Assembly: GCA_028716165.1 (NCBI GenBank)
Contig: JAQUQI010000009.1
Coordinates: 1 to 49,249, forward strand
Direction of reading: 5' to 3'
From: Candidatus Omnitrophota bacterium
Lineage (GTDB): Bacteria; Omnitrophota; Gorgyraeia; JABMRG01
DNA length: 49,249 nucleotides
Program-made: the position numbers and the translations under genes
The notes under the pieces: model-generated
What the model was told of the DNA's origin: nothing
Databases searched by the model: none
Seen by the model: only the letters and a program-made list of their open reading frames with translations
Shown: piece after piece, positions 36,308-46,540 of the stretch
Layout of the letters: every line of letters begins with the position of its first letter
How positions within the stretch are numbered: the first letter of the stretch is position 1

Positions 36308-37312
36308 GTGAGAATAAGCCAAATAGCAAAACAGGCCAACGTATCATCTATGATTGTTTCAAGGGTGATGCACGGTTCGCCGAACGTCAAGCCGCAGGAT
36401 AGAAAAAGGGTCCAGGATGCTGTCAAAAGTCTGAAGCTCAACGCCTTTGTGGGGTCCGGTATAAGAAAGAAGTCGGGCAAGGTTTTTGGGCTGATAGTCC
36501 CAAGGTTTGAGGATATATTCCATTCATTTTATGCCACCGAGATTATAAAAGGCGTTGTCCTTGCCGCCAGCAGGCTTAAAATTGACGTTATGATTCATAT
36601 AAGCGACAGCAAGAATCACGAGGATTGGCTTACAAGCAACGCCTTGAGCCCGGATTATATAGACGGTATATTGTTCGCCGACATAAACAGCGATAAAAGC
36701 CAGCTTCGGAAGGTGCTTGCCAGAAAAACGCCGTGTATGGTATTAAATAATTCGTTTGAAAAAGAGGACATTAATTCCATTGCTATTGATAATGAGCATG
36801 CCGCGATAGCGGCCACGGAATATCTTTTCCGGTTAGGGCATAGAAACATTGCCACTATCGCGGGCGAGCTCTCAACAGAGTCGGGCAGGATGAGGCTTGA
36901 AGGGTTTAAATCATTTATGAAATTACATAATTTAAGATTGAGCCCAAGGTATATTACCGTCGGACATTATTTACGCTCGCCTGCCAGAAAGGCGGCCGAA
37001 GCCCTGATAGCTCTTACCGAGCGGCCTACCGCCATATTCTGCGCCAGCGACGTAATGGCTATGGAGGCGATAGATGTTATCAAGCGCAAAGGCCTAAGGG
37101 TGCCTGAAGATATATCCATAGTTGGTTTTGATGATAATCCCCTGTGCGCTTATTCGCCTGTGCCCCTTACTACGGTTTGGCAGCCTATTGTTGAAATGGG
37201 CAGGTTAGGCGTGGAACTTCTTTACCAGATTGTGACAGGTGTAAAAAAACAGCCTGTCAAGACGCTGTTAAAGACTAAACTTATAGAGCGCGCTTCATGC
37301 GCCAAGATATAA
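36308..37312 (+). CDS. LacI-family transcriptional regulator
   Basis: A 334-residue regulator with an N-terminal helix-turn-helix and hinge (ISQIAKQANVSSMIVSRVMHGSPNVK) and a full periplasmic-binding-type sensor domain (GLIVPRF..., DGILFADI, FRLGHRNIA, RPTAIFCASDVMAMEAI, ISIVGFDDNP). GTG 36308 is supported by GGAGGA at 36295-36300. Members usually bind a sugar and repress genes for its use. Here it lies between gspF and gspG, in the same direction, which suggests control of secretion by a sugar signal. The effector cannot be read from the sequence. Confidence 0.9.
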   Translation: MRISQIAKQANVSSMIVSRVMHGSPNVKPQDRKRVQDAVKSLKLNAFVGSGIRKKSGKVFGLIVPRFEDIFHSFYATEIIKGVVLAASRLKIDVMIHISDSKNHEDWLTSNALSPDYIDGILFADINSDKSQLRKVLARKTPCMVLNNSFEKEDINSIAIDNEHAAIAATEYLFRLGHRNIATIAGELSTESGRMRLEGFKSFMKLHNLRLSPRYITVGHYLRSPARKAAEALIALTERPTAIFCASDVMAMEAIDVIKRKGLRVPEDISIVGFDDNPLCAYSPVPLTTVWQPIVEMGRLGVELLYQIVTGVKKQPVKTLLKTKLIERASCAKI

Positions 37313-42605: not shown

Positions 42606-42679
42606 TAAGTTGCTCTAATGCTCCGCTCACCAGGTATGGAGCACATTTTATAATATTTCAGTTTTTTTCCTAAAAACTG

Positions 42680-42708
42680 TTGACATAATTAATTAGCTAT
42701 AGTAAACT
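42680..42708 (+). promoter_or_regulatory. promoter of the second T2SS unit
   Basis: TTGACA at 42680-42685 and TAAACT at 42703-42708 with a 17-base spacer. The predicted start is near 42715, about the foot of the leader hairpin at 42713. Confidence 0.75.
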
Positions 42709-42712
42709 ACTC

Positions 42713-42797
42713 TACAAGTAGGGAGAAGGTGGGCTCTCTGCTTGTAAATATTGGTAATTTGTGTAATATCCAGCTCACTGCTGGATTTTTTATTTTT
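42713..42797 (+). promoter_or_regulatory. attenuator-like leader before merR-like-gspA-gspC-gspD
   Basis: Hairpin 1 pairs 42713-42725 with 42734-42746 (13 bp including wobbles, 8-nt loop AAGGTGGG). Hairpin 2 is a classic intrinsic terminator: ATCCAGC 42768-42774, loop TCACT, GCTGGAT 42780-42786, then T-rich to 42797, only 12 nt before the ATG at 42810. GGTGGGCT (42728-42735) can pair with AGCTCACT (42772-42779), which would break the terminator stem or form a kissing loop. This layout fits regulated termination such as a riboswitch or protein-controlled attenuator. No known riboswitch consensus is recognised. Confidence 0.65.
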
Positions 42798-42809
42798 GAG
42801 GAAAATATT

Positions 42810-43052
42810 ATGCCGAATATATATTTGCTTAAGGACCTTTCGCATGTAACAGGACATTCTGTAGACACCCTAAAGTTCTACCTTAAAATAGGGCTCATAA
42901 AAGAAATCGCCAGAGGCCCGGAGACGAATTTTAGATTTTTTGACGATACAACGGTAAACTCGCTTAAGGATATACGAGAACTTAGAAAAAACGGAGTGCC
43001 TTTAAGCAAGATAAAGGACAATATCCCAAGGTACAAAAAGAGGCAGGGATGA
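42810..43052 (+). CDS. small MerR-like DNA-binding protein
   Basis: An 80-residue protein consisting of only the MerR-type winged helix (LKDLSHVTGHSVDTLKFYLKIGLI, then NFRFFDDTTVNSLKDIRELRKNGVPLSKI). No effector domain or dimer coiled coil follows, so it is a stand-alone HTH. ATG 42810 has GAGG at 42798-42801; upstream starts would lie inside the terminator leader. It overlaps gspA by 4 nt (ATGA), so it is translated with the T2SS genes and may control them. Confidence 0.8.
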   Translation: MPNIYLLKDLSHVTGHSVDTLKFYLKIGLIKEIARGPETNFRFFDDTTVNSLKDIRELRKNGVPLSKIKDNIPRYKKRQG

Positions 43053-43867
43053 GTTATTACGAAGCGTTAAATCTCAAATCAGAACCTTTTTCAACGAGCC
43101 CTGACCCGTATTTTTTTTATCCGTCTTCTTCGCATGATTCAGCCCTTAAAAGGCTTGAGATTGCCATAAGGCTGCGCAGAGGGCTTAATGTCATCTTAGG
43201 AGATGTGGGAACAGGCAAGACCACGTTAAGCAGGATGCTTATCCAGCTGTTCAAGGATGAGCCTGATTTTATTTTTCACATGATTCTTGACCCGAGTTAT
43301 AAAACGGAGTTCCAGTTTCTTTCAAGCCTTGCCAAGATGTTTGGGGTAAACCCCGCTTTTCGCTCAACGCTTGATTACAAAGACGCCCTTGAAAAATACC
43401 TGTTTCAAAAAGGTGTTGACGAAAAAAAGACCATCGTTCTTCTTATAGATGAAGGTCAGAAACTTACCCCCAGCCAGGTGGAGATTTTAAGGACATTGCT
43501 AAATTATGAGACGAACGAATTCAAGCTGTTACAGCTGGTTATATTGTCACAGATTGAGCTTTTGCCCAAGATACGCAGGATAAGAAATTTCATGGACAGG
43601 ATAAATTTAAAATATATTATTAATCCTCTGGACGAGTCCGAGACACGCGCCCTCATCCACTTCAGGCTGAAACAGGCGGGTTATGATGCCTCGGGCCAGG
43701 AGTTGTTTACCGACAGCGCCATAAGGCATATATATGAATATACACAGGGTTATCCGAGAAAGATTTCAATGTTTTGCCATGACGCCCTTGAGGTATTGAT
43801 CATGCGTAATAAAAAGTTTGTTGACCAGGATATAATAGAAGAAATAATGACGCGTGAGGTACGGTAG
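43049..43867 (+). CDS. gspA: ExeA/GspA-type AAA ATPase
   Basis: A 272-residue AAA ATPase starting MSYYEALNLKSEPFSTSPDP-FFY, the standard opening of the ExeA/GspA group. Walker A is GDVGTGKTTLS, Walker B VLLIDEGQ, with a sensor-type segment and YTQGYPRKIS near the end. In known systems GspA with GspB helps place the secretin through peptidoglycan. The peptidoglycan-binding C-terminus of full-length ExeA is absent here, so this is the short form. Confidence 0.88.
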   Translation: MSYYEALNLKSEPFSTSPDPYFFYPSSSHDSALKRLEIAIRLRRGLNVILGDVGTGKTTLSRMLIQLFKDEPDFIFHMILDPSYKTEFQFLSSLAKMFGVNPAFRSTLDYKDALEKYLFQKGVDEKKTIVLLIDEGQKLTPSQVEILRTLLNYETNEFKLLQLVILSQIELLPKIRRIRNFMDRINLKYIINPLDESETRALIHFRLKQAGYDASGQELFTDSAIRHIYEYTQGYPRKISMFCHDALEVLIMRNKKFVDQDIIEEIMTREVR

Positions 43868-43868
43868 C

Positions 43869-44642
43869 ATGGATAGAGAGATTTCGCCGGAAGAAAGGCT
43901 TTTGCGTTTGATAAAAGGCAAAAATCGGCCGCTATCAGCAGAGAGGGCCAATATCCAAACCGCGGCAGGCGAGACGGGCCAGCCGATACCGGCATCTGTC
44001 CCGGCCGCTTCTTCTGGCAGATCAGGCGCCGTTTTAAAGCCAGACGGGCAAAAGATGCCGCTTCTTAAAGCAAAAGTTTCCGGCGCTGCGGATAGTATGC
44101 CAAAGGTCAAAATGCCGGCGGGCTTTAATCCTTATTATTTGATTGCCGGTTTTTTTGTTCTTTTACTGATTGCGGGATTATATTTTTTAATAAGTGCCTC
44201 CGGCACTAAAGAAGACCAGGATGTGGCTAATCTCAAACAGCTGGTCGCGGTTATATCAAGCCAGGCCCCCGCGGAAAATGCGCAGGCAAAACCCGCCCAG
44301 AATATTACCAGTGAAGCTCAAGGCTCTGGTGCCACAGGCAGAGGCTCATTTGATGATTATCAAAAACTTATCGGCAATAAAGCCGTATTCGTGCCGGCAG
44401 CGGTTGAAAAGAAGAAAACGCAGGCACAGGAACCCGCAAAACTGAACGAACTTTTAAAGGACCTCAAACTGGTCGGCGTGATTCCCGGAGACGTGCCGCA
44501 GGCCATTATTGAAGATAAAAAGAACAACCAGACGCTTTTTCTAAGAGAAGGAGAACTGGTTAACGGTATAGAGATAAAGAGCGTATCTGCCGGCAGGGTT
44601 GTCTTAAATTACGGTGAAGAAACCATGACCCTGTCACTATGA
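43869..44642 (+). CDS. GspC/GspB-like inner-membrane T2SS protein
   Basis: A 257-residue bitopic protein: basic cytoplasmic N-terminus, low-complexity Ala/Pro region, membrane span at about 89-109, Gln/Ala-rich periplasmic linker, and a C-terminal domain from about 192 (LKLVGVI-GDVPQAIIEDKKNN...LREGELVNGIEIKSV...VVLNYGEE). That domain resembles the GspC homology region and the related GspB and PilP folds that touch the secretin. Position after gspA suggests GspB, the HR-like pattern suggests GspC. ATG 43869 has GAGGT at 43856-43860. It overlaps the longer gspD frame but not the preferred gspD start. Confidence 0.7.
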   Translation: MDREISPEERLLRLIKGKNRPLSAERANIQTAAGETGQPIPASVPAASSGRSGAVLKPDGQKMPLLKAKVSGAADSMPKVKMPAGFNPYYLIAGFFVLLLIAGLYFLISASGTKEDQDVANLKQLVAVISSQAPAENAQAKPAQNITSEAQGSGATGRGSFDDYQKLIGNKAVFVPAAVEKKKTQAQEPAKLNELLKDLKLVGVIPGDVPQAIIEDKKNNQTLFLREGELVNGIEIKSVSAGRVVLNYGEETMTLSL

Positions 44643-44659
44643 TACGAGGGGGGCGCGTT

Positions 44660-46540
44660 ATGAAGGCGTTATTGACATTATTTTTGGCATTTATAATATG
44701 TATTAATCCGTGTAGAACTGCTTATGCGCAGAACTTCGGCCGTCCCCAGGACCAGCCGGAAGAAAAACTATCTCTTGACATCAAAGGTATGGATATACTG
44801 GACGTTTTCAGGTTATTATCCATGAAGGGCGGGATTAATATTATAGCAGGCAAAAATGTCACCGGCAAGGTCACGCTCTTTCTAAAAGGGGTTGATATAT
44901 GGGATGCGTTTGAAATAATAATAGCAGCCAATGGGTTAGCGTATGAGAATCGCAATAATATCATATACGTGATGACCGAACGCGATTATGAGCTTATGTA
45001 CGGAAAGAAGTACGAAGACAGGAGGATAGTCAAATCCGTAAAATTGCATAATGTTACGGCGGCAGAGGTGCTCAAATCAGTATCACAGCTTAAGACTAAT
45101 ATAGGCAAGGTTGTCTCTGACGATGTCTCGGAAACAATAGTCCTTATGGATATACCTGAAACTGTGGCTGAAATGGAAAACGTCATAGAGGTCCTTGACG
45201 TGCCCCTTACGACAAAGGTTTATAATCTCCAGTACGCCAAGGCCAATGATCTCAAGGATAGGCTTAGCGAGATATTAACCAAGAATACGGGTAGTATCCA
45301 TATTGACGAGCGCACAAACAAAATAGCGGTGACTGACCTCAAAAACCAGATACCTGTTTTTGATAAGCTGATAGAGGCCTTTGATGAAAAGCATAAAGAG
45401 GTCATCATTGAAGCCAAGGTTTTGCAGATTACATTAAATGACGACTATAATACCGGTATAAACTGGGACGCGGTCTTTACAAAGATGCAGAGTAAACTGC
45501 ACCAGGTTGCCACCCTCGGTGTAAGCTTAAGATACGGCGACCAGCAACAGGTCATACCCACTGTCGCGACCACGGCCAACGGCGGGGCCCTGCAGATAGG
45601 TAATCTCGCCACCGAGGGTTATCAGGCTGTTATACAGGCATTAAGGGAGTATGGTAAGACCAACCTTCTTTCATCACCCCGTATTGTGGCGTTAAATAAC
45701 GAAGAAGCCAGCATACTTGTGGGGACGAACCAGCCGTATGCTACCCGCACCATTAGCCAGGGAAGCGGTGGTACGGGCAATATAGAAGCTGAAAACGTGA
45801 CATTTATAGACCTTGGAATAAAGCTAATAGTAACGCCTACAATTAACGATGAAAATTACATTACAATGAAGATCAAGCCCGAAGTAAGCTCCAAGATAGG
45901 GGATTTCCAGATTACCAGCAGCGGTAATGTAATACCTATTGTAAAGACAACCACTACGGAAACGACCGTGATGGTCAAGAACGGCTCAACGGTCCTTATC
46001 GGCGGGCTCATGGAAGAGAATATAAGGGAAAGCCTAAGAGAGGTTCCGGGGCTTGCTAATATTCCTCTGCTTGGCAATTTGTTCAGGACAAGGACGATCG
46101 GCAGCGGCGATAGCACTAATCCCGAAAAGACGGAGCTTGTCATATTTCTTACCCCCCATATTATATCAGGGTATGAAGCCAATGATCTGCTTACTGTAAA
46201 CAAGGTCGCGCAGGAAAAGGCCGTAGACAATATTAGCGCGCGCCGCGGCATGACTAATGATATGGATGCCGATGAATATTACGGCCTCATAGCTTCAATA
46301 ATCAATAAGAAGGTTGAACAAGAGAAGCCTGGCGAGAGCCTGCACGGAGAGGTTTTTATATCTTTTGAAATCAATTCCAAGGGCGAGCTTGTTTCCAAAC
46401 CGGTTATATCAAAAGGGGATAACCCGGGGTTATCGCAATTAGGCATAAAAAGCGTAACGGAAGCGGCCCCTTTTCCGCCTTTCCCAAAGAGGATAACCAG
46501 CGATAAGGAAACACTGCAGATAGCCATAAGTTATCAATAG
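44660..46540 (+). CDS. gspD: secretin GspD with C-terminal TonB-like domain
   Basis: Outer-membrane secretin channel, 626 residues. ATG 44660 follows GAGGGGGG at 44646-44653 and starts a signal peptide (about 1-23, ending in AYAQ). N-domains (LSLDIKGMDILDVFRLLS, VYNLQYAKANDLKDRLSEIL) are followed by the secretin core: LLSSPRIVALNNEEASI, VGTNQPY, NVTFIDLGIKLIVTP and VLIGGLMEENIRES-VPGLANIPLLGNLF, ending TELVIFLTPHIIS. It has fewer N-domains than classical GspD, nearer PilQ. After a linker, residues 563-626 form what reads as a TonB-family C-terminal domain (VFISFEINSKGELV, then AAPFPPFPKR and a last strand). I know of no standard secretin with this tail. Confidence 0.92.
   Translation: MKALLTLFLAFIICINPCRTAYAQNFGRPQDQPEEKLSLDIKGMDILDVFRLLSMKGGINIIAGKNVTGKVTLFLKGVDIWDAFEIIIAANGLAYENRNNIIYVMTERDYELMYGKKYEDRRIVKSVKLHNVTAAEVLKSVSQLKTNIGKVVSDDVSETIVLMDIPETVAEMENVIEVLDVPLTTKVYNLQYAKANDLKDRLSEILTKNTGSIHIDERTNKIAVTDLKNQIPVFDKLIEAFDEKHKEVIIEAKVLQITLNDDYNTGINWDAVFTKMQSKLHQVATLGVSLRYGDQQQVIPTVATTANGGALQIGNLATEGYQAVIQALREYGKTNLLSSPRIVALNNEEASILVGTNQPYATRTISQGSGGTGNIEAENVTFIDLGIKLIVTPTINDENYITMKIKPEVSSKIGDFQITSSGNVIPIVKTTTTETTVMVKNGSTVLIGGLMEENIRESLREVPGLANIPLLGNLFRTRTIGSGDSTNPEKTELVIFLTPHIISGYEANDLLTVNKVAQEKAVDNISARRGMTNDMDADEYYGLIASIINKKVEQEKPGESLHGEVFISFEINSKGELVSKPVISKGDNPGLSQLGIKSVTEAAPFPPFPKRITSDKETLQIAISYQ

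Follow-up and report, generated by a model that had tools for sequence, protein, structure and literature searches.

A promoter palindrome conserved at secretin operons of Omnitrophota and its very probable role as binding site of a small MerR-type autorepressor

Introduction

Some MerR-family proteins activate transcription, and the classical activators of this family bind an operator located inside an overlong -35/-10 spacer of 19-20 nt. GlnR and TnrA recognise the palindromic box TGTNAN7TNACA, and in the autoregulated glnRA operon the regulator gene comes first. CvkR, the MerR-type repressor of type V-K CRISPR-associated transposons, is linked to a conserved promoter palindrome and has dimerisation and C-terminal domains of its own, with evidence against autoregulation (PMC9938897). 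BldC is a MerR-like protein of very short length, with neither coiled-coil nor effector domain, and its binding sites are direct repeats arranged head to tail (PMC5859096).

The window analysed here, a stretch of 49,249 nucleotides from a Candidatus Omnitrophota bacterium, carries an operon of merR, gspA, gspC and the secretin gene gspD, whose first gene encodes a MerR-like protein of 80 residues. Like GlnR and TnrA, this protein has a small MerR wHTH without a large effector domain, matches them in fold, has a probable operator that is palindromic and is encoded by the first gene of the operon that it probably controls. It differs from them in this probable operator (ACTCTCT-N4-AGAGAGT rather than the GlnR/TnrA box) and in its predicted target, a secretin operon, and no link to glutamine synthetase was seen here. 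Unlike the classical activators, the 80-residue protein has neither a long dimerisation helix at its C-terminus nor an effector part, and the promoters here (48 loci) have spacers of 16-17 nt with the operator on the -10 box or downstream of it. CvkR provides a precedent for a MerR-type repressor acting through a conserved promoter palindrome, though its motif is different and the autorepression predicted here sets the two apart. BldC shares the very short architecture, whereas the conserved sites described below are palindromes and not direct repeats. In the literature searched, no relevant description of MerR control of type II secretion, or of secretion in Omnitrophota, was found.

The region was originally predicted to contain a leader RNA, possibly a new riboswitch or attenuator, in front of the secretin operon. 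Its hairpin and terminator resemble those of terminator-type leader attenuators and riboswitches, which likewise lie between the promoter and the first gene; unlike in such systems, no conserved aptamer or recognised leader peptide was seen, the candidate antiterminator pairing keeps no fixed register between genomes, and the arrangement is restricted to one family. The conserved element is instead a DNA operator, very probably that of a small MerR-type autorepressor. For the secretin genes of the T2SS, a specific regulator and its candidate operator can in this way be read from sequence across a largely uncultured phylum, and the pair is simple enough to be tested in vitro, as a single small protein and a short piece of DNA would suffice.

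The leader and the genes behind it

A sigma-70-type promoter is located at 42680-42708 on the + strand (TTGACA at 42680-42685, a 17-nt spacer, TAAACT at 42703-42708), with 10 of 12 consensus bases and a layout common to 48 of 55 merR loci. Behind it, the transcript would form hairpin 1 (42713-42746, + strand), in which 42713-42725 pair with 42734-42746 over 13 bp around the loop AAGGUGGG; the same hairpin was found in the three family relatives G001, G002 and G003. An intrinsic terminator follows at 42768-42797 (+ strand; ATCCAGC-TCACT-GCTGGAT), its stem formed by 42768-42774 with 42780-42786 and its U-run covering 42786-42797, and the ATG of merR is at 42810, 12 nt past the U-run. Promoter, hairpin and terminator are thus all present where they had originally been predicted. 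The predicted fold of the leader reaches -31.1 kcal/mol, a z-score of -4.05, and none of 200 shuffles folded equally well. Terminator-like sites are not rare in themselves around the leader, with 7 against an expected 3.3 +/- 2.0 within 3 kb, but the leader terminator has been kept in two other genera. An alternative GTG start at 42729, in the loop of hairpin 1 and in frame with merR, was rejected, as G003 has no conserved extension.

The MerR-type regulator, a probable autorepressor, is encoded at 42810-43052 (+ strand). Its Pfam MerR_1 match (47.1 bits, cut-off 21.6; E 2.7e-12) places it in the MerR superfamily (wHTH), and profile and fold matches pointed to BmrR, CueR, CadR and GlnR. The predicted model (pLDDT 87) resembles the DNA-binding domains of MerR and GlnR proteins and shows a MerR wHTH without the long dimerisation helix, with only a low-confidence helix at residues 74-79. 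The second gene of the operon, at 43049-43867 (+ strand), encodes a gspA-like AAA ATPase (Pfam AAA_22), and the later genes, at 43854-46540 (+ strand), are a gspC-like gene (Pfam T2SSC, just under the cut-off) and the secretin gene gspD (Pfam Secretin).

A palindrome accompanies merR across Omnitrophota

The regions upstream of merR-gspA were gathered from relatives of the same class, and nearly all of them contained a palindrome overlapping or following the -10 box. This palindrome, ACTCTCT-N4-AGAGAGT, sits on the -10 box of the merR-like–gspA promoter, or immediately downstream of it, across Omnitrophota. Site matches from 147 genomes were set against the positions of merR. Every one of the 11 exact matches to the 20-bp site lay upstream of merR, as did 27 of 34 sites with one mismatch allowed, against 2 for the reversed control pattern. 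In 12 genomes scanned one by one, the best site was at the merR-gspA promoter in every case. A global regulon was rejected, as each genome has essentially just one such site.

Among the gspA loci, merR and a good site were both present at 45 and both absent at 61, with 9 and 4 exceptions. Of the 9 loci where merR has a weaker site, four belong to the genomes of the window's family, three carry a CTCCCT-AGGGAG variant, and two are distant and bear the label Neomarinimicrobiota/Marinimicrobia. At the other four, a site occurs without an adjacent merR. In two of these, judging from a site distance of 239 nt, merR appears to lie somewhat further from gspA; in the remaining two, G116 and G128, merR has been relocated to a separate secretin operon, and each of the two operons has a site, which scores 17.0 and 20.0 bits at the one that holds merR. 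In G085 merR is absent from the genome and the site is absent too.

A strong promoter with a spacer of 16-17 nt could be placed at 48 of the 55 merR loci. Its -10 box starts 3, 6 or 7 nt ahead of the operator core at 35 of these 48 and 10-28 nt ahead at the others; a site in such a place is in the position expected of a repressor. The palindrome might alternatively be bound by a regulator encoded elsewhere, or the MerR-like protein might activate, and an additional upstream site in the window (op0, below) could permit looping or activation. This is unlikely, given that merR and the site are present or absent together and remain co-resident when merR moves, and that the site does not precede the -10 box and the spacers are of normal length, in contrast to the long ones of classical activators. 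We therefore regard the palindrome as very probably the operator of the 80-residue protein, which would act as an autorepressor.

In one family (L055, L060, L085, L093, L096 and L097), the second of the tandem operators has diverged towards a CTATCT/AGATAG-like sequence and keeps a constant spacing of 26 bp from the first. Genomes labelled Neomarinimicrobiota/Marinimicrobia (L119:3781-4011 and L138:1664-1894) encode a related merR-gspA pair of about 40-45% identity. L138 has a different palindrome-like site, ACTCACTAACCATTGAGT, so that regulator and site may have diverged together.

The window's own operators and the origin of hairpin 1

A matrix of 56 operator sites, all from outside the window's family, was scanned over the 49-kb window. 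The best site, op1 (CTACTCTACAAGTAGGGAGAAG; 42707-42728, core 42709-42726), lies directly behind the -10 box with 14.7 bits, a score equalled in none of 3000 simulated intergenic regions, and is expected to cover the transcription start. The second-best site, op0 (42623-42644), is a degenerate CCGCTCACCAGGTATGGAGCAC of 9.2 bits located 84 bp upstream of op1. A remnant, op2 (GCTCTCTGCTTGTAAATA; 42733-42750), has kept its left half and lost its right half (-13.5 bits); it is 24 bp from op1, the position of op2 in G001, G002 and G003. These operators are given without strand. The family relatives share one spacing of the three sites, with 86-87 bp between op0 and op1 and 24 bp between op1 and op2. 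The window's own genome was searched by pattern, the matrix being applied to the window only, and the op1-derived pattern had no second match with up to 3 mismatches (reversed control, 11). Because op1 is degenerate, with 10 of 14 core matches, a level that several sites in the 49 kb also reach, and op2 is decayed, the motif is not detectable from the window alone.

The window's hairpin also forms from the op1-spacer-op2 block of G001, G002 and G003, in which both operators can be read. Hairpin 1 is the right half of op1 paired with the left half of the tandem op2. Tandem palindromes necessarily yield an inverted repeat in the transcript, so that hairpin 1 can be explained without an RNA function, and tandem protein-binding palindromes can pass for RNA leader structure. 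In the window, the hairpin is still perfect despite the loss of the right half of op2, with one two-sided change, and the spacer between op1 and op2 (GGTGGGCTC; 42726-42736) is invariant in all four family genomes. The perfect hairpin and the invariant GGTGGG are not required by the operators alone and leave room for an RNA role, which three or four sequences do not decide. Covariation was rejected as proof of RNA function, as a single double change in three sequences was matched by 176 of 500 shuffles.

A terminator confined to one family

The terminator is present at the same place in G003, in G001 and in the window, and has been lost in G002, i.e. it is kept in three of the four family genomes; that of G001 was missed by the automatic scan and read directly from the sequence. 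None of 49 loci outside the window's family has a terminator between operator and merR, and there merR follows the last operator at a median of 13 nt. In the window, the leader terminator is the only terminator-like site that the scan gave on the + strand from gspM to merR. In G001 (L072:4146-4396), an inserted repeat separates the conserved terminator from merR; it has many partial copies in G001, G002 and G003 and carries promoter-like sequence without an operator.

A covariance model of the leader, a check proposed with the original prediction, matched only the four family genomes among 147, three of which had trained it. A leader RNA as a general feature was accordingly rejected, the other 143 genomes giving no match. 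Rfam returned no usable match to the leader at gathering or permissive thresholds, in agreement with the earlier statement that no known riboswitch class is recognisable. The best permissive match, with 17.5 bits and E 5, was to the trpB motif, whose gathering score is 59, and was dismissed as a chance resemblance, two hairpins and a U-run. With hairpin 1 explained by tandem operators and the linker between hairpin 1 and terminator conserved neither in sequence nor in length, nothing points to a new riboswitch, and one is unlikely.

The part of the original interpretation that survives is the terminator, since its retention in three of four family genomes makes attenuation or insulation plausible. 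The terminator could be opened by the hairpin 1 loop (GGUGGGCU), in which case a ligand, a protein or the folding of the RNA would control read-through into merR-gspACD. The 8 pairs proposed for this, 42728-42735 with 42772-42779, do exist, two of them G-U (duplex -11.2 kcal/mol), and are better than expected from shuffles of the downstream stretch (p 0.021). Complementarity was found in all four family genomes, with a combined p of 0.012, or 0.029 for the three with a terminator, in a test chosen after the pairing had been noticed; the invariant spacer and the retention of the terminator in three genera also fit. The paired positions shift from genome to genome, however, and the complementarity is not significant in G003 (p 0.32) or G001 (p 0.13) alone, with 0.063 in G002, which has the hairpin but no terminator. 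Some complementarity thus holds up, barely above shuffles and in no fixed register. As there is also no conserved linker or aptamer, no Rfam match and no covariation above that of shuffles, a regulated attenuator seems improbable. We also think it quite unlikely that the tandem operators of this one family do double duty, as DNA half-sites for initiation and as an RNA hairpin whose GGUGGG loop pairs with the terminator for read-through.

The other reading, a stand-alone small RNA of about 80 nt running from promoter to terminator, could account for G001 keeping the old promoter, operators and terminator even though the inserted repeat, with its promoter-like sequence, separates them from merR. 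It is very unlikely, given that the leader occurs in four genomes of one family only, that its conserved part is the operator block, and that loci of other families leave too little space for an RNA of this kind. Judged from sequence, the terminator is a real, family-limited addition in uncultured Omnitrophota, probably a simple attenuating terminator specific to the family. Most likely it would reduce basal output and end transcripts arriving from the upstream T2SS unit, without a ligand. Taken together, the original observation was confirmed and its interpretation was partly supported.

A model of the operon

Based on genome comparison, we put the probability at about 0.8 that this is an autoregulated operon in which a MerR-type autorepressor acts at the palindrome, hairpin 1 is a tandem operator junction and the terminator was gained within the family. 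We infer that a homodimer of the 80-residue protein would bind op1 and thereby cover the transcription start behind the -10 box; binding, dimer state and repression are all part of this prediction. Bound op1 would block RNA polymerase, so that merR, gspA, gspC and the secretin gene gspD would be limited together. Further sites would be available at op0, 84 bp upstream, and formerly at the now decayed op2, 24 bp downstream of op1. Hairpin 1 would be the transcribed junction of two tandem operators and not a sensor, and the family-gained terminator between the operators and merR would reduce basal expression and block transcripts from unit 1, with no ligand involved.

Two further features of the secretion genes were observed. 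A gene for a LacI-family regulator lies at 36308-37312, between the gspF-like and gspG-like genes of T2SS unit 1, and the secretin (44639-46540) has a C-terminal TonB_2 match at residues 545-626, behind the secretin domain.
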